DNA of 64,000 bases, from assembly GCF_007994075.1 (NCBI RefSeq), contig NZ_VIWU01000001.1, positions 5,642,001 to 5,706,000 of the forward strand. Reading direction: 5' to 3'. The stretch's first letter is position 1; every line of letters begins with the position of its first letter. The notes beneath the pieces are model-generated. The model was not told where the DNA came from, did not search any database, and worked only from the letters and a program-made list of their open reading frames with translations. The stretch is from Pseudonocardia hierapolitana. GTDB taxonomy: Bacteria; Actinomycetota; Actinomycetes; Mycobacteriales; Pseudonocardiaceae. Below, in pieces: positions 44,151-63,268 of this stretch. A program made the translations under genes and the position numbers.

Positions 44151-44178
44151 GGACCGGACGGACGCCCTGGCCGTGACA
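44151..44178 (-). promoter_or_regulatory. ECF-type promoter 1 (cupin-LtrA-flavoprotein operon)
   Basis: On the minus strand TGTCACG (44178-44172), 16 bases, then GGTCC (44155-44151), 34 bases before the cupin start. It is one of seven sites with identical spacing; the strong -35-like element and a GTCC -10-like element resemble ECF41-group promoters. It is divergent from promoter 2. Confidence 0.65.
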
Positions 44179-44211
44179 CGAGGACCGGCACCGTGACGTG
44201 GCGGACCCGGC

Positions 44212-44240
44212 CGTCACGAATCCACCGGCCGTCCTGTCCT
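44212..44240 (+). promoter_or_regulatory. ECF-type promoter 2 (NmrA-like copy 1 operon)
   Basis: CGTCACG (44212-44218), 16 bases, TGTCCT (44235-44240), 51 bases before the GTG of the shortened NmrA-like gene. It forms a divergent pair with promoter 1 and is closely similar to promoter 6, its duplicate 10.5 kb away. Confidence 0.65.
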
Positions 44241-44251
44241 CGCTTCCGGCG

Positions 44252-44270
44252 CCGCTCCGCACGAGAGCGG
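44252..44270 (+). repeat. 5'-UTR hairpin conserved between the two NmrA-like gene copies
   Basis: CCGCTC, seven-base loop CGCACGA, GAGCGG: a perfect six-pair stem just downstream of promoter 2. The same stem with loop CGTACGA lies at 54740-54758 before the second copy. It could be an RNA stem at the transcript 5' end or a dyad operator. Confidence 0.5.
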
Positions 44271-44291
44271 GCTCGGACGAAGGGATGCGTC

Positions 44292-44585
44292 GTGAAGGTC
44301 GTTGTGATCGGTGGTACCGGGCTGATCGGGTCGAAGCTGGTGACCAAGCTGGGCGAACACGGCCACGAGGCGGTGCCGGCGGCCCCGAACACCGGCGTGA
44401 ACACGTTGACGGGTGAAGGGCTCGCGGAGGCGCTCGACGGCGCGGCGGTCGTGGTTGACGTGTCGAACTCGCCGTCGTTCGCCAGCTACTCCGGCGCGCG
44501 GATCAGCGAGCGGACGCTGCTTCCGGGCCCGGACGCCCAGCTCGGGGAGATCACCCTCGGCACGTGGCTCGCCCAGCGGCAGTAG
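44292..44585 (+). CDS. Internally deleted NmrA-like NAD(P)-binding protein, copy 1
   Basis: A 97-residue derivative of the full protein at 54785-55531. Residues 1-64 (VIGGTGLIGSKLVTKLGEHG onward) are nearly identical to the N-terminal Rossmann part of copy 2. The chain then jumps from SNSPSFA to SYSGARISERTLLPGPDAQ, which matches the last 32 residues of copy 2. 151 codons are missing, in frame, with no stop. GTG 44292 and the GAAGGGA upstream match copy 2. It may be a pseudogene kept as first gene of an operon or a small dinucleotide-binding protein. Four further genes follow on the same strand. Confidence 0.75.
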   Translation: MKVVVIGGTGLIGSKLVTKLGEHGHEAVPAAPNTGVNTLTGEGLAEALDGAAVVVDVSNSPSFASYSGARISERTLLPGPDAQLGEITLGTWLAQRQ

Positions 44586-44639: not shown

Positions 44640-45170
44640 ATGGAGCAACCGAAGGTCTCGGTCATCCACCTCGGAACGGCGGACGGCATCCAGGCCCTGG
44701 CGAAGGAGGTGGCGACCGGCGCCGAGGAGGTGGGCGCGGTCGTCCGGATCCGGCGCGTGCCGGACCACGCCGCCGCGGCGCAGGCGGGTGTCGGGAACCT
44801 CGCCACCCCGGACGACGTCCGCTGGGCGGACGCGGTCGTCCTCGGCTCGCCGAGCCGCTACGGCAGCCTCGCATCTCCGCTCAGATCGTTCCTGGAGACG
44901 CTGGAGCCCCTCGGCGGCGGCAGGCAGCGGGAGATCGTCTGGTCCGGCTTCGCCTCCGACGACGGCGTGCTGCACGGTGGGCACGAGGCCACGCTGATGA
45001 CCTTGTTCCGCGCGCTGCTCCGCCTGGACGGCGTCCTCGTCCCCGCACCCCGCGCCCAGGACCTGGACGGGCGCGCCGTCGCTCGGCAGACCGGGCGGGA
45101 CGTCGCCCGTGTCGCAGGCCGGCTGCTGGCCGGTGCGGCCGCCGAGGGCGGACCGGTCCCGGTCGCGTGA
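44640..45170 (+). CDS. Flavodoxin-fold NAD(P)H:quinone reductase (WrbA-like)
   Basis: A 176-residue flavodoxin-like protein. FMN-phosphate binding is suggested by IHLGTADGIQALAKEVATGA at the N-terminus, and the isoalloxazine loop by VVLGSPSRYGSLASPLRSFL near residue 68, the pattern of WrbA proteins, which reduce quinones by two electrons and protect from oxidative stress. The C-terminal part WSGFASDDGVLHGGHEATLM is also family-like. The ATG at 44640 has AGGAG upstream. It follows the shortened NmrA-like gene by 54 bases and is probably read from promoter 2. Confidence 0.82.
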   Translation: MEQPKVSVIHLGTADGIQALAKEVATGAEEVGAVVRIRRVPDHAAAAQAGVGNLATPDDVRWADAVVLGSPSRYGSLASPLRSFLETLEPLGGGRQREIVWSGFASDDGVLHGGHEATLMTLFRALLRLDGVLVPAPRAQDLDGRAVARQTGRDVARVAGRLLAGAAAEGGPVPVA

Positions 45171-45188
45171 TGACGGCCGGTGGCCCGG

Positions 45189-45668
45189 ATGATCAGGAGC
45201 GTTGATCCCCGCCTTCCGCGCGACGTGCTGTTCCTGTTGTGGGCGATGGGGCACGGCGACGAGGTCGCCGTGGTGGATTCGTGCTACCTCGTCGGCCAGG
45301 ACGGACAGCTGCGCGGCATGGTGGTGCAGATGGGCGGCGCCGACATCCTCCAGGCGATGCGTGCCGTCCTGTCGGCAGTGCAGATCGACACCACCTTCGT
45401 CGCTGCTCCGGTCAGGCAGATCGAGCACGCCGATTCGGGACCGTTGTGCGAGGTGCGACGTGCGGTGCAGGTCGAGGTCGATGACGCACTGGGGTTCCGG
45501 TGCTCGATCGCCGCAGTCGCACACCGGGAATTCCACGAGCAGGTCAGGAACTGCTATGGATTGATCATCACCGGAGATGCCAGGAAGCAGGGGAACTTCA
45601 TCCTGCGGAAGGGGCTGGACGTGACACCGGCCAGCGTCCTCTCCCCGAACGGGCAGCAAAGCCCGTGA
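45189..45668 (+). CDS. RbsD/FucU (sugar mutarotase) family protein
   Basis: A 159-residue protein. Family marks are DPRLPRDVLFLLWAMGHGDE near residue 5, where the catalytic His of MGHGDE is conserved, and REFHEQVRNCYGLIITGDAR then GNFILRKG near the C-terminus. RbsD and FucU interconvert anomers and ring forms of ribose or fucose. The ATG at 45189 gives the usual N-terminus; a GTG at 45180 would add three residues. Its presence in a stress-type operon is unusual. The middle part (about residues 55-115) is longer than in RbsD. Confidence 0.78.
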   Translation: MIRSVDPRLPRDVLFLLWAMGHGDEVAVVDSCYLVGQDGQLRGMVVQMGGADILQAMRAVLSAVQIDTTFVAAPVRQIEHADSGPLCEVRRAVQVEVDDALGFRCSIAAVAHREFHEQVRNCYGLIITGDARKQGNFILRKGLDVTPASVLSPNGQQSP

Positions 45669-46270
45669 TGGCACCCGGGGGGAAGCACGATCTGATCGTC
45701 GACGGGGAGCGCATCCGCACGGCCCGGCTCCTCCTGCGGCCGTGGATCCTCGACGACGCCGAGGCCGCGCTCGCCATCTACGGTGCCGACGACGTGTCCA
45801 GATGGCTCGCGCCGGCGGTGGAGCGGGTGCCCGACATCGCGACGATGCGGGCGCACCTCGGTAGCTGGATGACCGAATGCGCGTCGGTGGACTCCTGCCA
45901 GGGCCGTTGGGCCGTCGAGCTGCAGGAGACCGGCGAGGTGGTCGGCGGCGTGACCTTGTTGCCGCTGCCTCCGTACGAACTGGACCTCCAGGTCGGATGG
46001 CAGATCGTTCCGAAGGCCTGGGGCAACGGATTTGCGACCGAGGCCGGCCATGCCGTCGCCCACTACGCCTTCGAAGCCGGCCTGGACGAGATCTTCGCCG
46101 TGGTGCGCCCGAAGAACGTGAAGGGTGCGGCCACCGCGCGTCGCGTCGGAATGGAGTGGGTCGGCGTGACGGACAAGTACTACGACCTCACGCTCGAGGT
46201 GTACCGCCTCCGTCGAGGCGATCTGGACGTGCCGACACCCAACGTCGAGAACCAGGACGAATCATCATGA
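45668..46270 (+). CDS. GNAT family N-acetyltransferase (RimJ/RimL type)
   Basis: A 200-residue acetyltransferase of the Acetyltransf_3 group. It begins IRTARLLLRPWILDDAEAAL, typical of RimJ/RimL-like enzymes. The acetyl-CoA loop is in VGWQIVPKAWGNGFATEAGH near residue 120 (WGxGxAxE), followed by FAVVRPKNVKGAATARRVGM. These enzymes acetylate protein N-termini, antibiotics or small amines. The ATG at 45668 overlaps the TGA of the preceding gene, and its own stop overlaps the ATG of the CBS gene, so it is in the middle of a coupled operon. Confidence 0.87.
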   Translation: MAPGGKHDLIVDGERIRTARLLLRPWILDDAEAALAIYGADDVSRWLAPAVERVPDIATMRAHLGSWMTECASVDSCQGRWAVELQETGEVVGGVTLLPLPPYELDLQVGWQIVPKAWGNGFATEAGHAVAHYAFEAGLDEIFAVVRPKNVKGAATARRVGMEWVGVTDKYYDLTLEVYRLRRGDLDVPTPNVENQDESS

Positions 46271-46698
46271 GCACTCATTCCCCGTCACCGGTGAAAACCG
46301 CAGCGGCCGACCTGTCACGCCGGCAGACCGTCGGGCAGGTCATGAGGCCGCCGGCGACGATCGAACCGGACGCGCACCTCGCCGCGGCCGCCTACCTGAT
46401 CGAGCACCTCCACGACCCGGCGCTCGTGGTGGTGGACGAGGACACCCACGAACCCGTCGCGATGATCACCGCCGCCGAGATCACCAGGGCGGTCGCCCAC
46501 GGTCGAAGCCTCGAGGACACGCGCGTCAGCCAGGTCGTCACGGCGAAGCCGGTGACGGTCCGAGCCGATGCCTTCGCCGAGGACGCGGCCCGGCTGATGC
46601 TGTCCCACGGCATCCGGCACTTGCCGGTCGTCGAGGGCCGGCGGCTCGTCGGGATGGTCGAGCTCGCCGATCTGTGCCGGGCGAGCTTCGCGCCCTGA
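46267..46698 (+). CDS. CBS-domain pair protein
   Basis: A 143-residue protein with two CBS domains. The first is about residues 20-80 (TVGQVMRPPATIEPDAHLAA, HDPALVVVDEDTHEPVAMIT) and the second about 85-143 (RVSQVVTAKPVTVRADAFAE, LMLSHGIRHLPVVEGRRLVG). Stand-alone pairs such as Hrp1 of mycobacterial dormancy bind AMP, ATP or other adenosyl ligands. It is last of five genes probably read from promoter 2. A strong hairpin follows at 46720-46738. Confidence 0.9.
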   Translation: MSTHSPSPVKTAAADLSRRQTVGQVMRPPATIEPDAHLAAAAYLIEHLHDPALVVVDEDTHEPVAMITAAEITRAVAHGRSLEDTRVSQVVTAKPVTVRADAFAEDAARLMLSHGIRHLPVVEGRRLVGMVELADLCRASFAP

Positions 46699-46719
46699 CC
46701 GCTGCCGGCGGCGGCGTAG

Positions 46720-46956: not shown

Positions 46957-47910
46957 TCAATGGCCTTGGTGCTGCTCGTCCTCCGTCGCCGCTGTGGCGC
47001 TGCGCCCCGCCCGGACGAGCGAGATGACGGTGTCGGCGGTGCGGTCGAGGTGGCTGCGGCCGTCCGGCAGCTGGGCCTCGGGGCTGATGTAGCTGCGGGG
47101 CCCGACGTGGGTGGCCGGGTCGAGCCGGTGCACGGTGACCCTTCCGGCGCGTCGGGCCCGGTTCCACCCGCTGCGCCGGAACAACCGCCAGCGCTGCGGG
47201 AAGATCCAGGTGCCGACCCGCTCGATCCGGTCGTTGGCGCTGGTGAGCAGGTGCAGGTGCAGAGCGTGCGTGAGGTCGTTGGCGCCGTTGTGGAACCCGC
47301 CGAGGGTGATCAGCAGGAGCGGGGAGCGCAGCTGCGCGTGCAGCTCGTCGACCGCGCCGGTGGCGACCTGGGCGCCGCCGCTGTAGCTGAGCAGCACCAC
47401 GGGAATGCCGCTGCCGGGCCGGTAGCCGGCGAGCCGGAGCTGGGTGGCGATCTGGGTGCCGACGGCGCGGTTGTAGAGGGGGCGGTACCGGCGGTCGGCG
47501 GCGACGAAGATCTGCATGACGTTGTGCAGGAACAGCAGCAGACCGACGTGCCGGCGTAGCCACGCCCACACCGGCCGGTCGGCGAGCGGGTCGGCCAGCG
47601 GGGAGTAGGGCAGCACCTGACCCAGCACCCGCAGCTCCGGCGCCCCGGCGATCAGCGCCTTGACCAGCCGGCCGCCGTCGCGGCTGTCGCGGAAGCGGCG
47701 CTTCCCGATGCCGTCGAGGTACACCAGGTAGGCGTCCGGGGGACGGTCGGCGGCCGCGCCGAGGGCATAGGGCATGCCCGCCGGGAGCTCGGTGGTGGGA
47801 GCCCGCCAGCCGGCCGTGTACGCCAGCACCTCGTACCGGGCGAGGAGCGCTTCGGCGAGCAGGACCGGCCCGACCCCGCCGGCCATGAGCAGGAACAGGA
47901 GCTCGCTCAT
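46957..47910 (-). CDS. Alpha/beta-hydrolase-like protein with N-terminal membrane helix
   Basis: A 317-residue protein. It begins with a hydrophobic helix (SELLFLLMAGGVGPVLLAEA). A nucleophile-elbow-like motif, PVVLLSYSGGAQVATGAVDE (GxSxG variant SYSGG) near residue 190, and a late His in LPDGRSHLDRTADTV suggest a lipase/esterase-like fold. A second hydrophobic patch is near HVGLLLFLHNVMQIFVAADR. ATG 47910 overlaps the stop of the membrane-protein gene upstream by four bases. It is the last gene of a four-gene operon beginning with patatin. The substrate may be a lipid or glycolipid. Confidence 0.68.
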   Translation of the reverse strand: MSELLFLLMAGGVGPVLLAEALLARYEVLAYTAGWRAPTTELPAGMPYALGAAADRPPDAYLVYLDGIGKRRFRDSRDGGRLVKALIAGAPELRVLGQVLPYSPLADPLADRPVWAWLRRHVGLLLFLHNVMQIFVAADRRYRPLYNRAVGTQIATQLRLAGYRPGSGIPVVLLSYSGGAQVATGAVDELHAQLRSPLLLITLGGFHNGANDLTHALHLHLLTSANDRIERVGTWIFPQRWRLFRRSGWNRARRAGRVTVHRLDPATHVGPRSYISPEAQLPDGRSHLDRTADTVISLVRAGRSATAATEDEQHQGH

Positions 47911-48398
47911 GGCTGGGGCTCCGCCGCCCCGGTGGCGCCGATCGTCCCGACCATGCGCCGAACCGCCTCGACGGCGAGGGCCAGCCCGAGTCCGGCGACG
48001 GCCACGCAGCCGGCGGCGGCCCACCAGCCCAGCCCGGTCGCCGCGCCGAGGGGCCCGGCGAGGCCCGCCCCGACCGCCACCAGGAGCAGCAGGTGCAGCA
48101 GCGGCCCGAGCAGCGGGAACGCGAGGACGGCGGCGAGCACCAGTGGGGCGAGCTGGCCCGGTGTCCAGGCCGGCACGACTACGTCCGGAGGTGGAGCGGG
48201 CTGCACCAGCTGGGCGAGGGACCACGCTGTGAGCGGCCAGAGCGCGAACACGGTGCCCTCGACCACGGCACCGGTCAACAGCAGCCCGGCCACGACGCTC
48301 CGCGACGTGCCGGACCGGCGGGCGATCACGGGCAGCAGGCGCCCGAGTGCCTCGGACAGCCCGGCGATCAGCAGCAGGACGACGACGGCAGGCGACAT
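47907..48398 (-). CDS. Small polytopic membrane protein of unknown function
   Basis: A 163-residue protein with about four hydrophobic helices (SPAVVVLLLIAGLSEALGRL, SVVAGLLLTGAVVEGTVFAL, LAPLVLAAVLAFPLLGPLLH and WWAAAGCVAVAGLGLALAVE). I do not recognise a family. It starts three bases after the glycosyltransferase stop and its end overlaps the hydrolase gene, so it is likely made together with both, perhaps as their membrane platform. Confidence 0.7.
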   Translation of the reverse strand: MSPAVVVLLLIAGLSEALGRLLPVIARRSGTSRSVVAGLLLTGAVVEGTVFALWPLTAWSLAQLVQPAPPPDVVVPAWTPGQLAPLVLAAVLAFPLLGPLLHLLLLVAVGAGLAGPLGAATGLGWWAAAGCVAVAGLGLALAVEAVRRMVGTIGATGAAEPQP

Positions 48399-48401
48399 CG
48401 G

Positions 48402-49625
48402 TCAGCGCTGTCGTAGCGGATCGGCAGGGGTCGTCCGGCCGACCGGACCGGCCGGGTGCAGGTAGCGCTCGATCTCGTCGGCGGCGCGCCGGTAGCCGCC
48501 CGCCCGGCGCTGGGCGACCTGCAGGTCGGCTGCGCCCGCCCGGTAGCGGGGGTCGTCGAGCAGGCGCCGCGCGAGGGCGTGCACGCTGTCCACGGCCGCA
48601 TCACGGGTGCCGATCGACAGGCCGGCGCCGAGCTCGACCACCCGACGGGCCACCAGCGGCTGGTCAGCGCCCTGCGGGACCACCAGCATCGGAACGCCGG
48701 CGTACGTGGCCTCGTTGACGCTGTTCATCCCGCCGTGGGTGACGAACAGCGCCGCGCGGGCCAGCACCTCCGGTTGCGGCACGGAGCGGCGGGCGAGCAC
48801 GCGCGCGGGCAACGGCCCCAGCGCGGCGGGATCGGTCTGCCCGGTGGAGACGACCACGGTGCCGCCCAGCGGGGCGAGCGCGGCGGCGAAGCCGCGCAAC
48901 AGCTGCGGGTCGGCGTTGAAGACCGTGCCCAGCGAGGCGTACAGCACGGGGTCCCGCAGCCGATCGAGCGGGAACGACGGGTCGGCCGGGCGGGAGCCGA
49001 TGCTCGGGCCGACGAACCGGTAGGACTGGTCGAAGTACTCGACGGCGGGCTGCAAGGCCCGTGAGGTGTAGACCAGGTTGAGCGGCTGGCGGATGTTCCC
49101 GAGGTCGATCAGCGGCAACCCGCGCGTGTCGAAGCGGCGGCGCAGCTCCCAGCGCGACCGCAGGTAGCCGAGGAGGCTGCGGCGGCGAGCCGCCGCCTCG
49201 ACGAGCAGGTCCCGCGAGGCGCGGGTGGGGCTGGGCACGTGCCGGTCGAACGCGAACGTGGTGAACGACGACGCCGCCGGCACCCCGAGCTCGCGGGCGG
49301 CGACCGCGCCCCACGGGCATGCGTTGTCGTGGACGATCAGGTCGGGCCGGATGCGACGCAATTCGGAGAGCACGGTGGGCAGCACGCGGACCGTCGTGAG
49401 CGCGAGCCCCTCCACCAGCGTGACCGGCGTCGGCGGGTCGGGGAGCGGCTGGTCACCCCCGGGATAGAGGTGCACGGTCGCGCCGGTGGCCTCGATCTCC
49501 TCCCGGAAGGCGGGCGTGGTGTGGTAGGTGACGGAGTGGCCGCGCCGCACGAGCTCGGCCACGACCGGCAGCGTCGGGTTGACGCGCCCGTGCATGCCGA
49601 TGTTGAGGAACGCGATGGTGCTCAT
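48402..49625 (-). CDS. GT-B glycosyltransferase of the MGT/UGT family
   Basis: A 407-residue glycosyltransferase of family GT1. The N-terminal acceptor domain begins IAFLNIGMHGRVNPTLPVVA, with the conserved GHxNP-like HGRVNP motif. The C-terminal donor domain has VLYASLGTVFNADPQLLRGF near residue 230 and the signature FVTHGGMNSVNEATYAGVPM near 300. These enzymes move UDP-sugars onto macrolides, polyketides, sterols or lipids. ATG 49625 overlaps the patatin stop (ATGA). Linked to a phospholipase-like gene and membrane protein, it may act on lipids. Confidence 0.9.
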   Translation of the reverse strand: MSTIAFLNIGMHGRVNPTLPVVAELVRRGHSVTYHTTPAFREEIEATGATVHLYPGGDQPLPDPPTPVTLVEGLALTTVRVLPTVLSELRRIRPDLIVHDNACPWGAVAARELGVPAASSFTTFAFDRHVPSPTRASRDLLVEAAARRRSLLGYLRSRWELRRRFDTRGLPLIDLGNIRQPLNLVYTSRALQPAVEYFDQSYRFVGPSIGSRPADPSFPLDRLRDPVLYASLGTVFNADPQLLRGFAAALAPLGGTVVVSTGQTDPAALGPLPARVLARRSVPQPEVLARAALFVTHGGMNSVNEATYAGVPMLVVPQGADQPLVARRVVELGAGLSIGTRDAAVDSVHALARRLLDDPRYRAGAADLQVAQRRAGGYRRAADEIERYLHPAGPVGRTTPADPLRQR

Positions 49626-50632
49626 CGGTCCGCCCCCGACAGGGAGGGAGTCGCCGCCCCGGCCGGACCTGCCGATGCCGCCGGGGGGTGCTCCGCCCGG
49701 TACAGGCCGGGCCCGCTGATCCGCAACCGGTCGAGGAAGCGCGCAGCCGCGGCGGACGCGGTGCTGATCAACCGCCCGGAGTGGCCGAAGTCCCACGGGG
49801 AGGGCCAGGCCTCGATGCCGGTCGGCAGGACGACGGTCGGGATGTGCTCGGACACCTCGTGCAGGTCGCGCTCGATCTGGTGGTGCCACATCAGCAGCCC
49901 GGCCCGGGCGGCGATCGCACCGGCCCGCCTGCGCGGGATGGTCGGGCGCAGCGGCCAGCTCGCCGGCCCGGTCGGCAGCACCACGACGCTGGCCGCTCCG
50001 GCCTGGTGGGCTGCGCGCACCGGGACGAAGGCGATCACCCCGCCGTCGACGAGCATCCGGCCGGCGCGGAGCACCGGGGGCAGGACGCCGGGAATGGCGG
50101 CGCTGGCCAGCAGCGCCGACTCGAGATCACCGTGGTCGAGCAACACCTGAGCCCCGGTGACCAGGTCCATGGCGATCGCGCTGAACGGGATCGCAAGCTC
50201 CTCGATCCGCGACGGCAGCCCGGCACGGGCGATCAGCCGGCGCAGGCCGTGATCGGCGAAGACGCTGACGCGGGAGGACGGGTAGCCGAGCGGGAACACG
50301 TCACGTCGGCGCAGCCTGGTCCACACGTGGTCCAGCCATGACGCGGCGGTGCCGGGGTGCGCGGCCACGATCGCCCCGTTGAGGGCGCCGACCGAGGTGC
50401 CGAAGATCAGATCCGGGACGAATCCGCGCTGCTCCAGCGCGTATCCGGCGCCGACCTGCGCCGCGCCGAACACACCGCCGCCACCCACCACCGCCGCGAC
50501 GGGACGGGGAAGGGCGCCCAGGCCCGCCGGCTCCGGGCCCACGGCCGTCCGGCCCGACAACGGTGGGCTCGTCCCGTTGCCGCCCGTCGTGGTCGGGCGC
50601 GTCTCGCAGGACGGCCACTCGCCGAACCTCAT
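49622..50632 (-). CDS. Patatin-like phospholipase (RssA/YlbK-like)
   Basis: A 336-residue serine hydrolase with a Ser-Asp dyad. The oxyanion loop is VVGGGGVFGAAQVG near residue 47, the nucleophile motif LIFGTSVGALNGAI near 76, and the catalytic Asp is in MLVDGGVIAF near 195. Patatins hydrolyse phospholipid or neutral lipid acyl chains. The ATG at 50632 has GAGGAAGG upstream; the longer frame would start inside promoter 3, so it is rejected. First gene of an operon with a glycosyltransferase, a membrane protein and a hydrolase. Confidence 0.87.
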   Translation of the reverse strand: MRFGEWPSCETRPTTTGGNGTSPPLSGRTAVGPEPAGLGALPRPVAAVVGGGGVFGAAQVGAGYALEQRGFVPDLIFGTSVGALNGAIVAAHPGTAASWLDHVWTRLRRRDVFPLGYPSSRVSVFADHGLRRLIARAGLPSRIEELAIPFSAIAMDLVTGAQVLLDHGDLESALLASAAIPGVLPPVLRAGRMLVDGGVIAFVPVRAAHQAGAASVVVLPTGPASWPLRPTIPRRRAGAIAARAGLLMWHHQIERDLHEVSEHIPTVVLPTGIEAWPSPWDFGHSGRLISTASAAAARFLDRLRISGPGLYRAEHPPAASAGPAGAATPSLSGADR

Positions 50633-50675: not shown

Positions 50676-50703
50676 GGACCGGGCGGCGGCCCGATCCGTG
50701 ACA
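50676..50703 (-). promoter_or_regulatory. ECF-type promoter 3 (patatin-glycosyltransferase operon)
   Basis: On the minus strand TGTCACG (50703-50697), 16 bases, GGTCC (50680-50676), 44 bases before the patatin ATG. Its context, TGTCACGGATCG, is shared with promoters 4 and 5. It is divergent from promoter 4. Confidence 0.65.
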
Positions 50704-50759: not shown

Positions 50760-50788
50760 TGTCACGGATCGAGCGGCCTCCCGGTCCT
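50760..50788 (+). promoter_or_regulatory. ECF-type promoter 4 (YceI gene)
   Basis: TGTCACG (50760-50766), 16 bases, GGTCC (50783-50787), 33 bases before the YceI ATG. Beyond the core it shares TGTCACGGATCG and GGTCCTC with promoters 3 and 5, although the spacer differs. Confidence 0.65.
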
Positions 50789-50819: not shown

Positions 50820-51380
50820 ATGACCACGGCCACGACCGCAATTCCCGGTTACCTCGCGGGTACCTGGGACATCGACCCCGTTCACTCCGACGTCTCCTTC
50901 ACGGTGCGCCACATGATGGTGAGCAAGGTGCGAGGCCGGTTCGGCACCTTCTCCGGGGAGATCGTCACCGGCGAGAACCTGACCGGCTCGTCCGTCACCG
51001 CGTCGATCGACGCGGCCTCGATCGACACCGGTAACGGCCAACGCGACCGGCACCTCCGCTCGGCCGACTTCTTCGACGTCGAGAGGTACCCCACCTGGAC
51101 GTTCCGCTCGACGGGCGTGCGCGCCGACGGCGACGACCTCGTGGTGGACGGGGAGCTCACGATCAAGGGAGTGACCCGGTCGGTGCCGCTGGCCGTGGAG
51201 GTGGGCGGCATCGGACCGGACGCAGGCGGCGGCACCCGCATCGGATTCTCCGCTTCGATCACGATCGATCGCAACGATTTCGGCGTTGACATCAAGATGC
51301 CGCTCGACGGCAGCGGCGTCGTCGTCAGCGACAAGGTGCAGATCGCCATCGAGATCGAGGCAGTGCTGCGCCAGGAATGA
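50820..51380 (+). CDS. YceI family lipocalin-like protein
   Basis: A 186-residue YceI-fold protein with no signal peptide. The family start GTWDIDPVHSDVSFTVRHMM near residue 14, the middle DRHLRSADFFDVERYPTWTF near 80, and the end FSASITIDRNDFGVDIKM are all typical. YceI proteins bind long isoprenoid chains in an extended barrel; several are stress or alkaline-inducible. The ATG at 50820 has GGGAG upstream. It is monocistronic under promoter 4 and is followed by remnants of arginine deiminase pathway genes. Confidence 0.93.
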   Translation: MTTATTAIPGYLAGTWDIDPVHSDVSFTVRHMMVSKVRGRFGTFSGEIVTGENLTGSSVTASIDAASIDTGNGQRDRHLRSADFFDVERYPTWTFRSTGVRADGDDLVVDGELTIKGVTRSVPLAVEVGGIGPDAGGGTRIGFSASITIDRNDFGVDIKMPLDGSGVVVSDKVQIAIEIEAVLRQE

Positions 51381-54728: not shown

Positions 54729-54739
54729 TGCTTCCGACC

Positions 54740-54758: not shown

Positions 54759-54784
54759 GCGTTGGTCGAACGAAGGGACGCGTC

Positions 54785-56041: not shown

Positions 56042-56988
56042 GCGAACCCGTCCTCGAACCGGCGGCGCAGGAGATCGCGGACGCCACCGCCACGCCGCCG
56101 TTCCTGTACGAGCTCGACGTGGAGGGCGCCCGGAAGGTCCTCGACGACATCCAGGCCGCCCCTGTCGAGAAGCTCGACGTCGCCGAGAAGTGGATCGCCG
56201 TGCCGGCCGACGTCGGTCCGGTGACGGTCCGCATCGTCAAGCCGGTCGGGGCGACGGGGGTTCTGCCGACCGTCCTCTACATGCACGGTGGGGGGTGGGT
56301 CCTCGGCAACGCCGGCACCCACGATCGGCTCGTGCGCGAGCTCGCCGTGGGCGCGAACGCCGCGGTCGTGTTCGTCGAGTACGACCGCTCGCCGGAGGCC
56401 CGCTACCCGCTCGCCATCGAGCAGGGTTACGCGACCGCCCGGTGGATCACCGAGTACGGCCGGTCAGAGGGACTCGACGCGTCGCGGCTCGCCATCGCCG
56501 GTGACTCCGTCGGCGGGAACATGAGCGCGGCCCTCACGATCATGGCGAAGCAGCGGGGCGACGTCACGTTCGTGCACCAGTCGCTGTACTACCCGGTCAC
56601 CGACGCCGCGCAGGACACGGCGAGCTACCGGGAGTTCGCGGACGGCCCGTACCTGACCGCGAAGGGGATGGCCTGGTTCTGGGACGCCTACACGACCGAC
56701 CCCGCCCAGCGGGCGGAGATCACCGCGTCACCGCTGCGGGCGAGCCTCGAGGAGCTCGCGGGCCTGCCCCCAGCGTTCGTCGCGGTGGACGAGAACGACG
56801 TCCTCCGCGACGAGGGTGAGGCCTACGCCCGCCGCCTCACGCAGGCGGGCGTGCCCACGACGAGCGTCCGCTACAACGGCACGCTCCACGACTTCATGAT
56901 GCTCAACCCCGTGCACGGGACCCGCGCCGCGACGGCCGCCATCGAGCAGGCCATCCGCGTCCTGCGCGGGGCGCTCGGCACCGGCTGA
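56038..56988 (+). CDS. Alpha/beta hydrolase, hormone-sensitive lipase family
   Basis: A 316-residue esterase/lipase of family IV. The oxyanion HGGGWVLGNAGTHDRL motif is near residue 85, the nucleophile elbow GDSVGGNMSAALTIMAKQRG near 160 (GDSxG), the acid in AVDENDVLRDEGEAYARRL near 252, and the His in YNGTLHDFMMLNPV near 288. It hydrolyses short to medium acyl esters in the cytoplasm. It is coupled by an ATGA overlap to the cupin gene upstream. Confidence 0.92.
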   Translation: MSEPVLEPAAQEIADATATPPFLYELDVEGARKVLDDIQAAPVEKLDVAEKWIAVPADVGPVTVRIVKPVGATGVLPTVLYMHGGGWVLGNAGTHDRLVRELAVGANAAVVFVEYDRSPEARYPLAIEQGYATARWITEYGRSEGLDASRLAIAGDSVGGNMSAALTIMAKQRGDVTFVHQSLYYPVTDAAQDTASYREFADGPYLTAKGMAWFWDAYTTDPAQRAEITASPLRASLEELAGLPPAFVAVDENDVLRDEGEAYARRLTQAGVPTTSVRYNGTLHDFMMLNPVHGTRAATAAIEQAIRVLRGALGTG

Positions 56989-57015
56989 ACCGCAATCGAC
57001 CTCAGGGAGATGGAC

Positions 57016-57735
57016 ATGTCCGCACAGAACCTCACCGTGCTCCTGATCCACGGAGCCTTCGCCGAGTCCGCGAGCTGGAACCCGGTGATCGCCAGGCTCC
57101 GCGCGGAGTCGGTGGACGTCGTCGCGGTGGCCAACCCGCTGCGCAGCGTCTCCGGTGACGCCGCCTACCTGCGCGACGTCATCACCGGCATCGGCACGCC
57201 GGTCGTGCTCGCCGGTCACTCCTACGGCGGCATGGTGATCACCGAGGCGGCGGCGGGCAACGACGCCGTCAGGGCGCTCGTCTACGCCGCCGCGTTCGCC
57301 CCCGACCGCGGCGAGAGCGCGCTCCAGCTGGCGAGCCGGTTCCCCGGCAGCACGCTCGGCGAGGCCATCGTGCCCTCCCCGGTCGCGGGCGGGGGCAACG
57401 AGTTCCGGATCCGGCCGGACGCGTTCCACCATCAGTTCGTCGCCGACGGGACGGCGGAAGAGGCCGCGCTGATGGCGGTGACCCAGCGCCCGGTCACGGA
57501 GGCGGCGCTGGCCGAAGGCCTGCCCACGGACGTACCGGCGTGGCGGCAGCTGCCGTCGTGGTTCGTGTTCGGCGACCAGGACCGCAACATCCCCGCAGAG
57601 GCGCTGCGGTTCATGGCCGATCGCGCGGGGTCGAAGGGCACTCGCGAGGTCGCGGGCGCATCGCACGCCATCAGCGTCGGGGCACCCGACCAGGTGACGG
57701 CGACCATCCTCGACGCGGTCGGGGCGGCCGGGTGA
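57016..57735 (+). CDS. Alpha/beta fold hydrolase (esterase/salicylate-esterase-like)
   Basis: A 239-residue hydrolase. The N-terminal TVLLIHGAFAESASWNPVIA, the nucleophile elbow VLAGHSYGGMVITEAAAGND (GHSYGG, Ser near residue 72) and the terminal EVAGASHAISVGAPDQV (His near 218) match the group related to plant methyl-ester hydrolases and bacterial RsbQ-like proteins. ATG 57016 is preferred to ATG 57010 because GGGAG is then five to six bases upstream. Its stop overlaps the next gene start (GTGA). Confidence 0.88.
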   Translation: MSAQNLTVLLIHGAFAESASWNPVIARLRAESVDVVAVANPLRSVSGDAAYLRDVITGIGTPVVLAGHSYGGMVITEAAAGNDAVRALVYAAAFAPDRGESALQLASRFPGSTLGEAIVPSPVAGGGNEFRIRPDAFHHQFVADGTAEEAALMAVTQRPVTEAALAEGLPTDVPAWRQLPSWFVFGDQDRNIPAEALRFMADRAGSKGTREVAGASHAISVGAPDQVTATILDAVGAAG

Positions 57736-58688
57736 GCGCGGGGGACGGTCAGCGGCTCGAACCGGTGCGGCGCGTCCACGCCGGAGTGCTCGACGTGGCC
57801 TACCACGAGGATGGCCCTGCCGACGGGGAGGTCGTGCTCCTCCTGCATGGTTTCCCCTACGACATCCACAGCTACGTCGACGTCGCGCCCGCGCTCGCCG
57901 CCGAGGGTTTCCGCGTGATCGTCCCCCACCTCCGCGGGCACGGAGCCACCCGGTTCCTCGATCCCGCAACGCCACGAAGCGGCCAGCAGGCCGCGCTGGG
58001 CGCCGACGTCGTGGCCCTGCTGGACGCGCTCGGCATCCGCCGCGCCGTCCTCGCCGGCTACGACTGGGGAGCCCGCGCGGCCTGCGTGGTGGCCGCGCTC
58101 TGGCCCGAGCGCTGTACCGGGCTCGTGTCCGTCAACAGCTACCTGATCCAGGACATCGCCGCGGCGATGACGCCGATCCGGCCCGATCTGGAAGCCGGGT
58201 TCTGGTACTTCTACTACTTCCTCACCGAACGCGGCAGGGCCGGGCTCGCCGCCGACCCCCGCGGCGTCGCCGAGGTGATCTGGCGGCGCAACTCGCCCGC
58301 GTGGCCGTTCGACGACGCCACGCTCGACCGGGCTGCCGAGGCCTTCACCAACCCCGACTACGTCGATGTGGTCATCCACTCCTATCGCCACCGCCTCGGA
58401 TACGCCCCCGGCGCCCCGGCCTACGCCGAGATCGAACGACGACTCGCCGCTATGCCGGTGATCACGGTCCCGGCCGTCACCCTTGACGGCCTCGCCGACG
58501 GGAACTTCCCCGCCACCGACGGCAGCCCGTCAGCAGCGCATTTCACCGGCCCTCGACTGCACCTCCAGGTCACCGGGGCGGGGCACAACCTGCCCCAGGA
58601 AGCCCCGAAGGACTTCGCCGACGCCGTCCGAGAGGTGATCCACCTACGTCACGCATGGAGCGAAGATGAGCACCCCGACCGGCGATGA
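57732..58688 (+). CDS. Alpha/beta hydrolase, epoxide hydrolase/haloalkane dehalogenase-like
   Basis: A 318-residue hydrolase with an Asp nucleophile in AVLAGYDWGARAACVVAALW (GYDWG) near residue 110 and the oxyanion motif LLLHGFPYDIHSYVDV near 38 (HGFP). These features mark epoxide hydrolases and dehalogenases, not esterases. A cap region (WYFYYFLTERGRAGLAADPR) follows, and the final His lies in VTGAGHNLPQEAPKDFADAV. GTG 57732 overlaps the preceding TGA. The gene overlaps the peroxidase gene by 23 bases. Confidence 0.88.
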   Translation: MSAGDGQRLEPVRRVHAGVLDVAYHEDGPADGEVVLLLHGFPYDIHSYVDVAPALAAEGFRVIVPHLRGHGATRFLDPATPRSGQQAALGADVVALLDALGIRRAVLAGYDWGARAACVVAALWPERCTGLVSVNSYLIQDIAAAMTPIRPDLEAGFWYFYYFLTERGRAGLAADPRGVAEVIWRRNSPAWPFDDATLDRAAEAFTNPDYVDVVIHSYRHRLGYAPGAPAYAEIERRLAAMPVITVPAVTLDGLADGNFPATDGSPSAAHFTGPRLHLQVTGAGHNLPQEAPKDFADAVREVIHLRHAWSEDEHPDRR

Positions 58689-60285
58689 CGCCTTCCTGAA
58701 CTCGCTGGAGCAGGACGTCGCGGCAGAACTCCGCCGGGCGGAGGCCAGCGAGCCGGACGACGAGGCGGGCGGTCTCCCGATCGACGAGTGGATGTTCGAT
58801 CCGGCGGATGTCCAGCGCGAAGAGATCGGACTCCGCAGCCTTCTCGGCGCGGTGAAGGCCATGGAGAACGGCTCCCGGCCCAGCGCCGCCCCGGCATCCG
58901 CCCACGGCATCCACGTGGCCGCCCGTGGCCACTGCCTGAGCCTGGTACGGGCCGTGGACCGGCCCACCGGGGCTGCGCGCTACGGGCGGATGTTCCCGGA
59001 CCTGAACCCGCTGGGCACCGACCCACAGCTGCTGATGCGCGCGGGCGGCAACGGCGGGATCTGCGACGCCGCCGCGGTGCTGGGCGGGCTGGGTCCCGGC
59101 GACGACGACGCCTCCGAGGCCGCGGGGTGGCCGTTCTTCGGCCAGCTGATCGCCCACGACATCACCGCCGATCGCTCGCCCATCGAAGGCGACGTCGCGC
59201 CTGATGCGCTGCGCAACGCCCGCGCCCCGAAGCTCAACCTGGAGATGCTCTATTCCGACGGCCCGGTCGGGTCGCCGTACCTGTTCGACATCGCCGACCC
59301 GGCGAAGTTCCTGCTCGGACCGGATGGCGCCGACGCGCCGCGCAACCACCAGGGCGTCGCCCTGATCGGCGATCCCCGCAACGACGTGCACCTGTTCGCG
59401 CTGGCCCTGCACGTCGCCCTGCTGCAGGCGCACAACCGCACCGTCGACCTGCTGCGCGAGAACGGGGTGCCCGAGGCCGAGGTCTTCGAGCGGGCACGGA
59501 TCATCCTCACCTGGCACTACCAGTGGGTCGTGGTCCATGACTTCCTGCCCCGTCTCGTCGGGGCGAGCCTCGTCGAGCGCGTGCTCGCCGAGGGCAGCCG
59601 GTGGTTCACGCCCGCGCCCGGGCAGGCCTACATCCCGCTGGAGTTCGCCGACGCGGCTTTCCGCTACGGCCACGGCCAGATCCGGCACACCTACCGGCTC
59701 GTCAACGGCGGTCCGCTGGTGCCGCTCTTCCCCGACCTCGTCGGGTTCGGCCCGCAACCCGCCGATCGTCGCCTGGATCTCGCGCAGGTCTTCGATCTGC
59801 CGGGACGCCCGCCCGCGCAGCGCGCCAAACGTCTCGACGGCCGGCTCGCGACCAGCCTGATCGGCCTTCCGGAGCAGGTCACGGGCGCGGTCGACACCGC
59901 CGCCTACCGTTCACTCGCGGTCCGCGACCTGCTGCGCGGCGAGACCACCGCGCTGCCAAGCGGGGAGGCGGTCGCGCAGGTCATGAACGTCTCGCCGCTG
60001 ACGGCGGACGAGCTGGATCAGGCGTGGCCGCACGGCACCCCGCTGTGGTTCTACATCCTCAAGGAGGCCGAGCACCGCGGCGGCGGTGACCGGCTCGGCC
60101 CGGTGGGCGGCCGGATCGTGGCGGAGGTCCTGATCGGGCTGCTGCGCGCCGACCCGGCGAGCTACCTGAGCCTCGAACCGGACTGGGAGCCGATCCTCCC
60201 CGCCGACGGACCGGACTTCGGCCTGGCGGATCTGCTCACCCTCGGTGCCACGCGCGACCGAGCGGGCGGCGCCGCCGGCCCATGA
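58666..60285 (+). CDS. Animal-haem-type peroxidase family protein
   Basis: A 539-residue peroxidase of the cyclooxygenase/myeloperoxidase superfamily. The distal His is in GWPFFGQLIAHDITADRSPI near residue 165, and the proximal His region is in ADAAFRYGHGQIRHTYRLVN near 330, with the linking IILTWHYQWVVVHDFLPRLV near 285. No signal peptide is visible, so it is probably cytoplasmic. Such bacterial enzymes may oxidise lipids or halides with peroxide. It is the last gene of the NmrA-cupin-hydrolase operon. Confidence 0.9.
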   Translation: MSTPTGDDAFLNSLEQDVAAELRRAEASEPDDEAGGLPIDEWMFDPADVQREEIGLRSLLGAVKAMENGSRPSAAPASAHGIHVAARGHCLSLVRAVDRPTGAARYGRMFPDLNPLGTDPQLLMRAGGNGGICDAAAVLGGLGPGDDDASEAAGWPFFGQLIAHDITADRSPIEGDVAPDALRNARAPKLNLEMLYSDGPVGSPYLFDIADPAKFLLGPDGADAPRNHQGVALIGDPRNDVHLFALALHVALLQAHNRTVDLLRENGVPEAEVFERARIILTWHYQWVVVHDFLPRLVGASLVERVLAEGSRWFTPAPGQAYIPLEFADAAFRYGHGQIRHTYRLVNGGPLVPLFPDLVGFGPQPADRRLDLAQVFDLPGRPPAQRAKRLDGRLATSLIGLPEQVTGAVDTAAYRSLAVRDLLRGETTALPSGEAVAQVMNVSPLTADELDQAWPHGTPLWFYILKEAEHRGGGDRLGPVGGRIVAEVLIGLLRADPASYLSLEPDWEPILPADGPDFGLADLLTLGATRDRAGGAAGP

Positions 60286-60469
60286 TTGCCAGGCCGGTGC
60301 ATTCCCGGCCGAACACGGCCGTCCGCGCGCCGGAGGGGCGCTCATGTCCGAGCGATGGGTGCCGCGCACCACGTCACACCCCGACACTGGCTGCCGCGCT
60401 CGCGCGCAGGGCATCATGGGATCACCCGCGCTGATCGGAGCCGGGCCTCCTTGACCTGCGCGGTGGTGG

Positions 60470-63232
60470 TTGATGTCGAGCGGCGCTGTCCGGCGCAGGT
60501 TGCTTGGCAGGCGTAGCGAGTGCGAGGCGCTCGGTCGGCTCGTGGCGAACGTCAGGGCCGGTCGGAGCCGGGTACTGGTCCTGCGCGGTGAGGCGGGGGT
60601 CGGCAAGTCCGCGTTGGTGGACTACCTGGTGGGGAGCGCGGCGGGGTGCCGGATCGCGCGCGCCGTCGGCGTCGAGTCCGAGATGGAGCTGCCGTTCGCC
60701 GGGCTGCACCAGCTGTGCGTGCCGATGATGGCGCATCTCGATCGCCTTCCCGGCCCGCAACGGGACGCATTGTCCGTCGCGTTCGGGCTGAGCACGGGCA
60801 GCGCGCCGGACCGGTTCATGGTCGGGTTGGCGGTGCTGAGCCTGCTGGCCGAGGTGGCGGAGGAACAGCCCCTCGTCTGCGTGATCGACGACGCGCAGTG
60901 GCTCGATCAGGTCTCCGCGCAGACGCTGGCCTTCGTCGCGCGTCGGCTGCTCGCGGAGCGGGCGGCGCTGGTGTTCGCGGTGCGCGAGCCGGTGTTCGCC
61001 CCGGCCGACCCGTTGGTGGGGCTGCCGGAGCTCGTGGTCACGGGCCTGCGCGACGGTGACGCCCGTGCGCTTCTGGAGTCGGCGGTCCCCGGGCGGATCG
61101 ACGAGCGGGTCAGGGATCGGATCGTCGCCGAGACCCGCGGCAACCCGCTGGCCCTTCTGGAGCTGCCACGGGGGTTGACGGCGGCGGAGCTGGCCGGTGG
61201 GTTCGGGCGTCCCGACGCGCGGCCGCTCGCCGGCCAGATCGAGCAGAGTTTCCTGCGGCGTATCGAGGCGCTCCCGATCGCGACGCAACGGCTGCTGCTG
61301 TCCGCGGCCGCCGAGCCGCTGGGGGACGTGTCGTTGTTGCGGCGGGTGGCCGAGCGGCTCGGCATTGAGCCGGACGCAGCGGCCGCGGCCGAGGCGGCGG
61401 GGCTGATCGAGCTCGGGGTGCGGGTGCGGTTCCACCATCCGCTGGTGCGCTCGGCCGCGTACCGCGCGGCGAGCGCCGACGACCGCCAGGCCGTCCATCG
61501 CGCGTTGGCCGCCGCGACCGATCCCGAGTCCGATCCGGATCGCCGAGCATGGCATCGGGCACATGGGGTGGTGGAACCCGACGAGTCGGTGGCAGGCGAG
61601 CTGGAGCGCTCGGCCGACCGGGCGCAGGCCAGGGGCGGAATCGCCGCCGCGGCCGTGTTCCTGAAACGCTCGACCGAGCTGACGCCCGATCCGGTCAACC
61701 GCGTCGCACGTGCGCTGGCCGCAGCGCACGCCAGCTTCGAGGCAGGATCCTCCGACGCAGCCTCCGAGCTGCTCGCCGCAGCGGAGCTGGGTCCCGTCGG
61801 CGAGCTGCAGCGCGCGCGGCTGGCCCGACTCCGTGCCCGAATAGTGTTCACCCGCCGGCGCGGCCGCGACGCGGTGCCGTTCCTGGTCGATGCGGCCGAC
61901 CAACTCGAACGACTCGGCGACGGACAGGCCAGGGAGGCCTACCTCGAGTCGTTGGGTGCCGCGGTCTTCGCCGGTCGCCTGCTCGGTCAGAACGGGCTGC
62001 GGGAGGTGGCCGAGGCCGCCAGGGCAGCGCCGCCGGCCTCGCGGCCGCCACGGCCGATCGACGTGCTCCTGGACGGGCTGGTGGCGCGGTTCACCGAGGG
62101 CCACGTCGCGGGTGCGCCGCTTCTGAAGCGGGCGCTGCAGGCGTTCCGGCAGGATTCCCGACCCGACGAGGACGACTTCATACGCTGGTACTGGCTGGCG
62201 TGGTTCGTCGCGGGCGACATGTGGGACGACGAGACGTCGTACGAGCTGACCACGCGCGCGGTCCGGCTGGCTCGCGAGGCCGGGGCGCTCAACGTCCTCC
62301 CCCTGGCCCTGACCCACCGTGCTGCCGTGCACCTGCACGCCGGAGAGTTTGCTGCGGCCTCGGAGCTGATCGAGGAGTGCGACGCGCTCACGGAGGCCAC
62401 CGGCCACGCACCCATGGGGTACTCCAAGCTGTCGCTCGTCGCCTGGCGCGGCGAGGCATCGGCGGCTTCGGTGCCGTTCCAGTCCGATGCCCAGGACGGG
62501 ATCTCCTGGGGCGAGGGACGAGCCATCGGTGGGGTCGAGTACGTGCGGGCGGTGCTGTACAACGGTCTCGGTCGATACCAGGAGGCCCTGGCCAGCGCGA
62601 AACGGGGGTGCGAGTTCGAGGATCTGGGGGTCTCCGGGTTCACACTCGTCGAGCTCGTCGAGGCCGGTGTTCGAGGTGATGCCCCCGAGGTGGCCGGTGC
62701 TGCCATGCGACGACTCGAGGAGCGAACCGACGCCAGCGGAACGGACTGGGCCCTCGGCGTACGAGCCCGGTCGGCCGCGCTGCTGAGCGACGGCCGGTCC
62801 GCGGACTCGCTGTACCGCGAGGCGATCGAGCGCCTCGAACGCACCCGCGTCAACGTCCACCTCGCCCGTGCTCATCTGGTGTACGGCGAATGGCTGCGCC
62901 GGGAGAACCGGCGCGTCGACGCGCGTGCGCAACTCCGGACCGCCCACGAGATGTTGAGCGGTTTCGGCGCCGGGGCGTTCGCCGAGCGCGCTCGTCGTGA
63001 ACTCCAGGCCACCGGTGAGACGGTCCGTCGACGCTCGGCCGACGTGCGTGAGGTCCTCACCGCGCAGGAGGCCCAGATCGCCCGCCTCGCCGGCGAGGGG
63101 ATGACGAACTCCGAGATCGGCGCCGAACTGTTCATCAGCCCCCGCACCGTCGAATGGCACCTGCGCAAGGTGTTCACCAAGCTCGACGTCAGCTCGCGCA
63201 ACAAGCTACGCGGAGCGCTGACCCGCGCCTGA
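60470..63232 (+). CDS. LAL-type LuxR transcriptional regulator (AAA ATPase), copy 2
   Basis: A 920-residue regulator collinear with the protein at 37928-40666. Walker A is LRGEAGVGKSALVDYL near residue 39, a Walker B-like PLVCVIDDAQWLDQ near 135, then RIVAETRGNPLALLELPRGL near 222, a long helical repeat region, and a C-terminal LuxR domain (SADVREVLTAQEAQIARLAG, SPRTVEWHLRKVFTKLDVSS). ATG 60470 or 60473 starts it, after GCGGTGGTGG. The 184 bases upstream show no copy of the ECF-type motif. It ends eight bases before promoter 7. Confidence 0.9.
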   Translation: MMSSGAVRRRLLGRRSECEALGRLVANVRAGRSRVLVLRGEAGVGKSALVDYLVGSAAGCRIARAVGVESEMELPFAGLHQLCVPMMAHLDRLPGPQRDALSVAFGLSTGSAPDRFMVGLAVLSLLAEVAEEQPLVCVIDDAQWLDQVSAQTLAFVARRLLAERAALVFAVREPVFAPADPLVGLPELVVTGLRDGDARALLESAVPGRIDERVRDRIVAETRGNPLALLELPRGLTAAELAGGFGRPDARPLAGQIEQSFLRRIEALPIATQRLLLSAAAEPLGDVSLLRRVAERLGIEPDAAAAAEAAGLIELGVRVRFHHPLVRSAAYRAASADDRQAVHRALAAATDPESDPDRRAWHRAHGVVEPDESVAGELERSADRAQARGGIAAAAVFLKRSTELTPDPVNRVARALAAAHASFEAGSSDAASELLAAAELGPVGELQRARLARLRARIVFTRRRGRDAVPFLVDAADQLERLGDGQAREAYLESLGAAVFAGRLLGQNGLREVAEAARAAPPASRPPRPIDVLLDGLVARFTEGHVAGAPLLKRALQAFRQDSRPDEDDFIRWYWLAWFVAGDMWDDETSYELTTRAVRLAREAGALNVLPLALTHRAAVHLHAGEFAAASELIEECDALTEATGHAPMGYSKLSLVAWRGEASAASVPFQSDAQDGISWGEGRAIGGVEYVRAVLYNGLGRYQEALASAKRGCEFEDLGVSGFTLVELVEAGVRGDAPEVAGAAMRRLEERTDASGTDWALGVRARSAALLSDGRSADSLYREAIERLERTRVNVHLARAHLVYGEWLRRENRRVDARAQLRTAHEMLSGFGAGAFAERARRELQATGETVRRRSADVREVLTAQEAQIARLAGEGMTNSEIGAELFISPRTVEWHLRKVFTKLDVSSRNKLRGALTRA

Positions 63233-63240
63233 TCGTAGGT

Positions 63241-63268
63241 TGTCACGCAATGGCGCTCCGTCTTGTCC
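63241..63268 (+). promoter_or_regulatory. ECF-type promoter 7 (universal stress protein gene)
   Basis: TGTCACG (63241-63247), 16 bases, TGTCC (63264-63268), 49 bases before the ATG of the stress-protein gene. It is the only one of the seven not in a divergent pair. Outside the two boxes its sequence differs from the others, so the match is not due to recent duplication. Confidence 0.6.

Follow-up and report, generated by a model that had tools for sequence, protein, structure and literature searches.

Promoter-like sites and genes of the window

The window analyzed here, 64,000 nucleotides of the soil actinobacterium Pseudonocardia hierapolitana (contig NZ_VIWU01000001.1, positions 5,642,001 to 5,706,000), contains seven promoter-like sites of the form YGTCACG-N16-KGTCC within 19 kb, together with the gene for a shortened sigma factor related to group ECF41 of the extracytoplasmic function (ECF) sigma factors. 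Site 1 (TGTCACG-N16-GGTCC; 44151 to 44178, minus strand) stands ahead of a run of five consecutive minus-strand genes. The first encodes a small cupin-like protein below the Pfam cut-off (43722 to 44117) and is followed by genes for an LtrA family membrane protein (42502 to 43719; Pfam), a FAD_binding_2/Succ_DH_flav_C flavoprotein (40775 to 42505; Pfam), a LAL-type LuxR regulator with AAA and GerE domains (37928 to 40570; Pfam), and, just downstream of the latter, the sigma factor proposed as the regulator (37098 to 37745). Gaps of ∼205 and ∼183 nucleotides precede the LAL and sigma genes. The sigma factor has 215 amino acids, made up of sigma2, sigma4, and ∼40 to 50 further residues, and was assigned on the basis of Pfam (Sigma70_r2/r4_2), NCBIfam, and a tree.

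In the opposite direction, site 2 (CGTCACG-N16-TGTCC; 44212 to 44239, plus strand) precedes NmrA1 (44292 to 44585), a truncated 97-residue NmrA/epimerase-like copy, and its probable operon of WrbA-like, RbsD/FucU, GNAT, and CBS genes (44640 to 46698, plus strand). Site 3 (50676 to 50703, minus strand) heads a probable operon (46957 to 50632, minus strand) of patatin and glycosyltransferase genes and two open reading frames, 46957 to 47910 and 47907 to 48398, neither of which has a Pfam match. Site 4 (50760 to 50787, plus strand) faces a gene for a YceI family protein (50820 to 51380, plus strand; Pfam), and site 5 (54664 to 54691, minus strand) a gene for a P-type cation ATPase that is PMR1/SERCA-like but below the equivalog cut-offs (51944 to 54622, minus strand). 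Site 6 (54700 to 54727, plus strand) lies ahead of NmrA2 (54785 to 55531, plus strand; Pfam), an NAD(P)-binding NmrA/epimerase-like protein and the hallmark target, which is followed by a cupin gene, three alpha/beta hydrolase genes, and a heme peroxidase gene in a probable operon (55595 to 60285, plus strand). Beyond a second LAL-type LuxR regulator gene (60542 to 63232, plus strand), site 7 (63241 to 63268, plus strand) precedes a gene for a universal stress protein that runs off the end of the window (63318 to 63998, plus strand). Two classes of genes known as ECF41 companions, NmrA/epimerase-like and flavoprotein genes, are thus present. Are these seven sites the promoters of one regulon, and is the shortened sigma factor its regulator?

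Spacing, position, and genome-wide distribution of the sites

A first-pass annotation of this DNA had listed the seven sites as promoters sharing one motif at a gap of exactly 16 bases. All seven are present, compared to a mean of 0.13 (largest, 2) in 100 dinucleotide shuffles of the window, and their coordinates hold except that the three plus-strand sites 2, 4, and 6 end one base earlier, at 44239, 50787, and 54727. The relaxed pattern YGTCACR...KGTC(C/T/A) occurs seven times in the window at spacing 16 and zero to two times at any other spacing between 8 and 29. Every site is intergenic and oriented in the sense direction toward a gene, with the start codon 32 to 57 nucleotides beyond the −10 box (counting NmrA2 from the GTG at 54785; 54788 was used in the first computation). 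Chance origin is ruled out by the shuffles, the spacing controls, and the intergenic test described below.

Across the whole genome (8.86 Mb), a loose pattern matched 25 times (7 times within the window), versus 5 times for a reversed control; 16 of the 18 matches outside the window were CGTCACG forms. A stricter 28-base pattern, with additional conserved bases before the −10 box, matched exactly only at the seven window sites, a result that is partly circular because the pattern was derived from the sites themselves. Allowing one mismatch added 10 places, and allowing two gave 144 versus 62 for the control. When a position weight matrix was built leaving out one site at a time, each site still came within the seven best-scoring window positions; a scan of the window with the matrix of all seven revealed no further convincing site. 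One of the one-mismatch sites, at genome position 833689 (L041/L177), lies ahead of a paralogous hydrolase operon whose products are 81, 68, and 76% identical to the three window hydrolases. This off-cluster site has the canonical −35 sequence TGTCACA, and the LAL gene alongside it is 76% identical to the second LAL gene of the window. As a separate observation, the two NmrA leaders of the window (44239 to 44291 and 54727 to 54784) each contain a hairpin of 6 to 7 bp after the promoter; this is not a common feature of NmrA leaders, since only 13 of 63 have one.

The ECF41 promoter is TGTCACA-n16-CGTC according to the available part of Wecke 2012 (PMC3426412). The window sites have its TGTCAC and its 16-base spacer, with G as the seventh base in 7 of 7 cases and G/TGTC as the −10 box.

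Related clusters in the genus

Clusters of such sites were found in four other Pseudonocardia genomes, with 8, 8, 9, and 4 sites in G064, G022, G015, and G008. Eight stretches of four genomes of the genus held 29 matches at spacing 16, 7 at spacing 11, and 0 to 3 at the others. In G064 and G022, each of the seven units corresponding to those of the window is preceded by a site. NmrA2 is absent from the G064 cluster, which has a full-length relative at the place of the truncated NmrA1, and NmrA1 was not seen at its place in G022, so that in these cases the site stands ahead of the next gene; the counterpart of site 6 accordingly precedes NmrA2 in G022 and the cupin gene in G064. In G015, pattern sites occupy the places of sites 1, 2, 5, and 7. 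Compared to the window, spacers are 79, 74, and 61% identical and flanks 72, 61, and 45% identical in G064, G022, and G015, respectively.

G015 has a shuffled gene order, in which sites of their own precede flavoprotein, peroxidase, and hydrolase genes whose window counterparts are in internal positions. Membership of the predicted regulon is kept in G015, and its arrangement is changed. These additional sites also bear on the earlier proposal that almost all genes between 40.8 and 64 kb can be driven from the seven promoters. That proposal rests on a presumed operon read-through, and the operon extents given above are predictions.

The promoter class across relatives

A wider sample consisted of the loci around the best 80 of 559 relatives of the NmrA2 protein (L062 to L141), taken from named genomes of Pseudonocardia, Streptomyces, Amycolatopsis, Nonomuraea, Actinoplanes, Acidobacteria, and others. 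The class pattern YGTCACR-N16-KGTC(C/T/A), which allows only A or G at the seventh −35 base, matched 343 times in these loci at spacing 16 and 5 to 21 times at other spacings from 8 to 29, except for 59 matches at spacing 11. The peak at 11 is what a second GTC, five bases before the −10 box, would produce. At least one site was present in 66 of the 80 loci and five or more in 34; 14 loci had none. With the first −10 base left free, 414 sites were found at spacing 16, of which 321 had G, 76 T, 11 C, and 6 A. Because 397 of the 414 begin the −10 box with G or T, we regard G/TGTC as the rule of this promoter class. The first-pass annotation had noted that the −10 box differs somewhat from the published ECF41 sequence (G/TGTC versus CGTC); a new −10 box specific to this genome is ruled out by the same count.

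Position relative to genes was examined in 89 stretches (the 80 loci, the window, and the eight genus stretches). Sites lay outside called genes in 374 of 379 cases, compared to 51 of 107 matches at control spacings, the other 56 of which were inside genes; 306 sites had a called gene start within 250 nucleotides. The first gene after the site was of the NmrA family for 60 sites in 58 stretches, a count to be read knowing that 80 of the 89 stretches were themselves fetched with NmrA2, and it was a sigma factor of the present type for 24 sites in 20 stretches. Other first genes, named from the Pfam assignment of one example per family, were cupin (22 stretches), OsmC (17 and 9), ferredoxin reductase-like (15), ferredoxin (14), flavoprotein (12), Abhydrolase_3 (12), Pyr_redox_2 protein (10), carboxymuconolactone decarboxylase (10), AMP-binding-like protein (10), and cytochrome b (5). 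NmrA, carboxymuconolactone decarboxylase, and oxidoreductase genes, which represent the three classes of genes known to accompany ECF41, were all headed by sites within the same stretch in 6 of the 89.

Are the sites also clustered when whole genomes are searched? We used the strict pattern TGTCACA-N16-KGTCH on nine genomes, which were chosen from the loci and are not a random sample; a reversed control gave 0 to 3 matches per genome. Streptomyces sp. V4I2 has 33 of its 34 matches within 101 kb near the end of a 10.66-Mb contig, and S. canus V4I20 has 15 of 16 within 46 kb. Twenty of 27 matches in G090 and 9 of 18 in G092 fall on one contig. Smaller groups comprise 11 of 17 matches within 26 kb (G091), 6 of 10 within 19 kb (G089), 5 of 6 within 10 kb (G094), and 5 of 8 within 9 kb (G086). 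Nonomuraea dietziae (G093) has six matches with no cluster above two. A looser pattern found 34 sites in the V4I2 island, none of them inside called genes; the simple gene caller misses genes there, and many distances from site to next gene are thus undefined.

Association with one clade of sigma factors

The genome contains 19 sigma-like matches at E values up to 1e-5, 12 of which are strong ECF41-type matches: the window sigma factor and 11 paralogs. A tree of 107 sigma cores was built by a quick method, with support from the Shimodaira-Hasegawa-like approximate likelihood ratio test (SH-aLRT) only and with five partial or distant rows left out. The window sigma factor and the cluster-linked sigma factors form a clade of 82 rows in it (SH-aLRT 98). 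The 48 loci with a clade sigma factor, among which we counted L079 even though it had been dropped from the tree, have a mean of 5.9 sites, compared to 1.8 for the 32 loci without one. A similar association was seen within the genus, where 13 of 62 genomes, the present one included, have a match of more than 190 bits and a median of 6 genome-wide sites, compared to a median of 1 in the 49 others (Mann-Whitney, p 5e-5; the 190-bit line was chosen after the match scores and the tree were known).

Could a different sigma factor read the same sites? The sites may be of the ECF41 type and yet be driven by another, full-length ECF41 paralog of the genome, or by several together. The 11 paralogs supply candidates, and several of their genes adjoin TGTCAC-type sites; those at L031 and L034, and one of the pair at L033, have the G/TGTC ending of the cluster sites. 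However, the other sites adjoining paralogs (L027, L029, L032, the second at L033, and L037) end in CGTC, whereas the clusters use G/TGTC. None of the 11 strong paralogs belongs to the cluster-linked clade, and orthologs of the window sigma factor sit within the clusters of G064, G022, and G015 (95, 88, and 62% identical, respectively). We therefore consider this alternative unlikely.

The motif could instead be an operator, bound by the LAL-type LuxR regulators that the cluster encodes, rather than an ECF promoter. The window has two LAL genes, LAL relatives belong to the clusters of G064, G022, and G015, and another adjoins the off-cluster site of L177. Relatives of the window LAL proteins, however, are found in only 8 of the 80 loci (E 1e-30, over 60% coverage), and the 41 loci with a clade sigma factor and no LAL gene have a mean of 5.95 sites. 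These site-rich loci rule out LAL operators as a general explanation. The motif also shows no dyad symmetry by eye, and its boxes and spacing fit the ECF41 promoters mapped experimentally in the available part of Wecke 2012 (PMC3426412). An operator is for these reasons very improbable. We give slightly less credence still to the idea that the sites are nonfunctional leftovers of duplicated upstream regions, such as the two NmrA leaders: sites 2 and 6 do have leader sequence in common, and GGATCG after the −35 box is common to sites 3 to 6, but the 343 sites of the loci comprise 333 distinct sequences, genes unrelated to one another are preceded by these boxes at a constant spacing, and the sites stay where flanks have diverged to 45 to 72% between genomes, a variety that rules out duplicated leaders as the whole explanation.

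A shortened sigma factor

The first-pass annotation had pointed to the protein encoded at 37098 to 37745 as an ECF41-like sigma factor. Its place in the clade agrees with this, with the correction that it is a truncated relative without the SnoaL domain. Pfam identifies ECF-type sigma2 and sigma4 domains (Sigma70_r2 and Sigma70_r4_2). The best NCBIfam matches, SigX4 and SigJ, fall below the whole-protein cut-offs and align only to model positions 194 of 281 and 201 of 293. The protein ends ∼50 residues past region 4, and the ∼100-residue SnoaL-like extension of ECF41 is absent, as are the DGxG and NPxK motifs. Passages of the ECF41 literature name WLPEP as the characteristic linker motif; the window protein reads SWFPARAL instead. 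The best solved match (residues 10 to 167, E 8e-33) is SigJ of Mycobacterium tuberculosis (PDB 5xe7), which carries a fused SnoaL-like domain according to the available part of PMC8999054, whereas the window protein ends before it. A SnoaL part missed behind the sigma gene is ruled out, since the 137 bp that separate the sigma gene from its called neighbor (DUF3040, 36676 to 36960) are too few for it, and the closest relatives, in G064 and G022, end at 215 to 216 residues. No separate ECF41-like SnoaL protein was found among the called genes of the window.

Short forms are not confined to this genome. The sigma factors in the G064, G022, and G015 clusters have 215 to 220 residues, while most Streptomyces members of the clade have ∼297 residues with DGGG-like and NPxK motifs. 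The subclade of the window (support 97) has 9 short rows of 10, representing eight different proteins, and the motifs are missing from its tenth row, L215, too. Streptomyces has a short clade of its own (support 98), and other short rows lie elsewhere, so that loss of the extension seems to have been repeated. WLPEP is present in 55 of 59 extension-bearing clade rows and in 6 of the 23 other clade rows; these 23, defined by lacking DGxG/NPxK motifs, include L213 and L210 (long by open frame and missed by the motif pattern), L215 (with an open frame of 275 residues), and a protein that was counted both as L082 and as L208. The ratios of nonsynonymous to synonymous divergence, 0.024/0.052 = 0.46 against G064 (few changes) and 0.064/0.292 = 0.22 against G022, suggest that the short sigma factor is maintained.

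Truncating two ECF41 proteins to 204 and 206 residues raised their activity ∼20- and ∼120-fold, and removing the extension entirely made ECF41 inactive, as reported in the available part of Wecke 2012 (PMC3426412). The natural short sigma factors stop in the same region as these hyperactive artificial truncations. By this analogy, the window sigma factor may be naturally derepressed.

SnoaL-like proteins without a sigma part and with DGGG/NPxK-like motifs occur in four loci (L122:13471-13836, L136:5412-5768, L116:12342-12698, and L102:12946-13407). Those of L122, L136, and L116 directly adjoin full-length ECF41-type sigma genes and are possible separate regulators; that of L102 may be part of a longer open frame.

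Reading of the −35 box and possible feedback

The seventh −35 base is G in 31 of 32 sites of the short-sigma Pseudonocardia clusters (the window, G064, G022, and G015), compared to 8% of the 343 sites in the loci. The recognition helix reads (G/A)RRAR in 8 of 10 rows of the window's subclade (7 of 9 different proteins) and mostly VSRAR in the rest of the clade, where the arginine is found in none of 70 readable rows (of 77). Two observations count against a link between arginine and base: the arginine also occurs in 2 of 17 readable outgroup rows (of 25), and, of the subclade members L065 and L216, which lack it, L065 has a locus with mixed sites (4 with G, 3 with A). The possible link between the recognition-helix arginine and G at the seventh base is therefore a lead and not proof. 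Since the sigma gene ends the same-strand run behind site 1, that site could also feed the sigma gene, in which case the system would include positive feedback.

Proposed regulon and its relation to known systems

We consider it likely that the seven sites are the −35 and −10 elements of promoters served by one ECF41-derived sigma factor, that encoded at 37098 to 37745, and that they make up a clustered multi-operon regulon of a naturally derepressed sigma factor. The first-pass annotation had likewise proposed one ECF41-like sigma factor running a physically clustered program, and the comparative evidence supports it: fixed spacing, intergenic position, recurrence, association with one sigma clade, and genome-wide clustering in most of the nine relatives. 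In such a system, region 4 of the sigma factor would read TGTCAC(G/A) and region 2 would read (G/T)GTC exactly 16 bases away, and binding and transcription starts would be expected at the predicted sites. RNA polymerase would then start the cupin-LtrA-flavoprotein, NmrA1-WrbA, patatin, YceI, P-type ATPase, NmrA2-hydrolase-peroxidase, and universal stress protein units together. With the SnoaL domain, the brake of canonical ECF41, gone and ∼40 residues of the extension kept, near the hyperactive lengths of two ECF41 proteins, the sigma factor is probably active whenever it is made, and control would rest on transcription of its gene. Judging from the gene families, the output is likely defense against redox, quinone, or lipid-peroxide stress.

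Several observations weigh against this reading. Compared to G064 (L172:11180-11700), the interval 37746 to 37927 of the window is missing ∼270 bp, among them a promoter-like site that in G064 points toward the sigma gene. Site 1 has the lowest leave-one-out matrix score of the seven. The high identity of core bases with the window (83 of 84 in G064, 83 of 84 in G022, and 46 of 48 over the four comparable sites of G015) is to a large extent a product of the search, in which the pattern itself served to locate the sites of the relatives. Several scattered matches can occur in a genome that lacks a clade sigma factor (7 in G085, 6 in G070, and 5 each in G002, G026, and G079), 5 of the 32 loci without one in reach have five or more sites, and 11 further clade sigma factors of the genus have only 0 to 2 sites in the surrounding 15 to 20 kb. 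The 11 other strong ECF41-type matches of the genome make cross-recognition possible, and one sigma factor per regulon is not established, given the presence of four ECF41-type sigma genes in the V4I2 island. The rows compared in trees and counts are kin and not independent, and the ratio of 0.46 against G064 is weak evidence for maintenance of the short protein.

A broader proposal, to which we give an even chance, is that actinobacterial ECF41-type sigma factors build regulon islands of 10 to 100 kb, in which unrelated redox and stress genes would each have gained the same promoter and would make up a single physical block, perhaps a transferable one, that includes its own sigma factor. Several lineages would have shed the SnoaL brake together with the matching linker motif, leaving an always-active switch controlled by expression, and the −35 readout would have moved from TGTCACA to TGTCACG in parallel with the gain of an arginine by the recognition helix.

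Both the ECF41 promoter and its association with genes of the epimerase type were known before, and the group has been found in ten phyla (Wecke 2012, PMC3426412, available in part). The passages available on three studied members, Ecf41Bli and Ecf41Rsp (PMC3426412) and RpoE9 of Sinorhizobium meliloti (PMC6180224), describe one target gene or operon each. These three resemble the window system in the TGTCAC −35 box, the 16-base spacing, the absence of a recognized anti-sigma gene alongside, and linkage to epimerase, oxidoreductase, or carboxymuconolactone decarboxylase genes. They differ from it in the number of reported targets, compared to seven promoter-like sites in 19 kb, in the first −10 base (C versus G/T), in the seventh −35 base (G in the window), and in having the SnoaL domain and WLPEP that the window sigma factor lacks. 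Effects of ECF41 beyond one neighboring gene are not unheard of, to judge from a title in the reference list of PMC8999054, by which RpoE10 of Azospirillum brasilense is an ECF41 sigma factor affecting motility and lateral flagella. The V4I2 relative of the window system, with up to 33 strict matches in 101 kb, departs further from the single target of the studied ECF41 proteins.

Cluster-situated ECF sigma factors, whose gene lies inside the gene cluster served, occur in biosynthetic gene clusters, AntA being one example. AntA-type clusters encode an antibiotic pathway, whereas the genes of the window encode redox and stress enzymes. AntA of antimycin is listed under ECF282 in the available part of PMC8999054, a different ECF group from that of the window sigma factor. 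We found no clustered multi-operon ECF41 regulon and no natural SnoaL-less form in a partial set of open-access literature and review passages, with the key classification paper outside it.

A clustered regulon of recurring redox genes would give ECF41 a readable function and many testable promoters, and the natural SnoaL-less forms offer a ready test of how the fused domain controls a sigma factor. If regulon islands exist as proposed, a regulatory program would be kept, and perhaps moved, as one block; related bacteria carry larger islands built alike.

Relatives of the window sigma factor were also observed on 33 plasmid records, the best of them 68% identical and located on a 1.6-Mb Streptomyces replicon.

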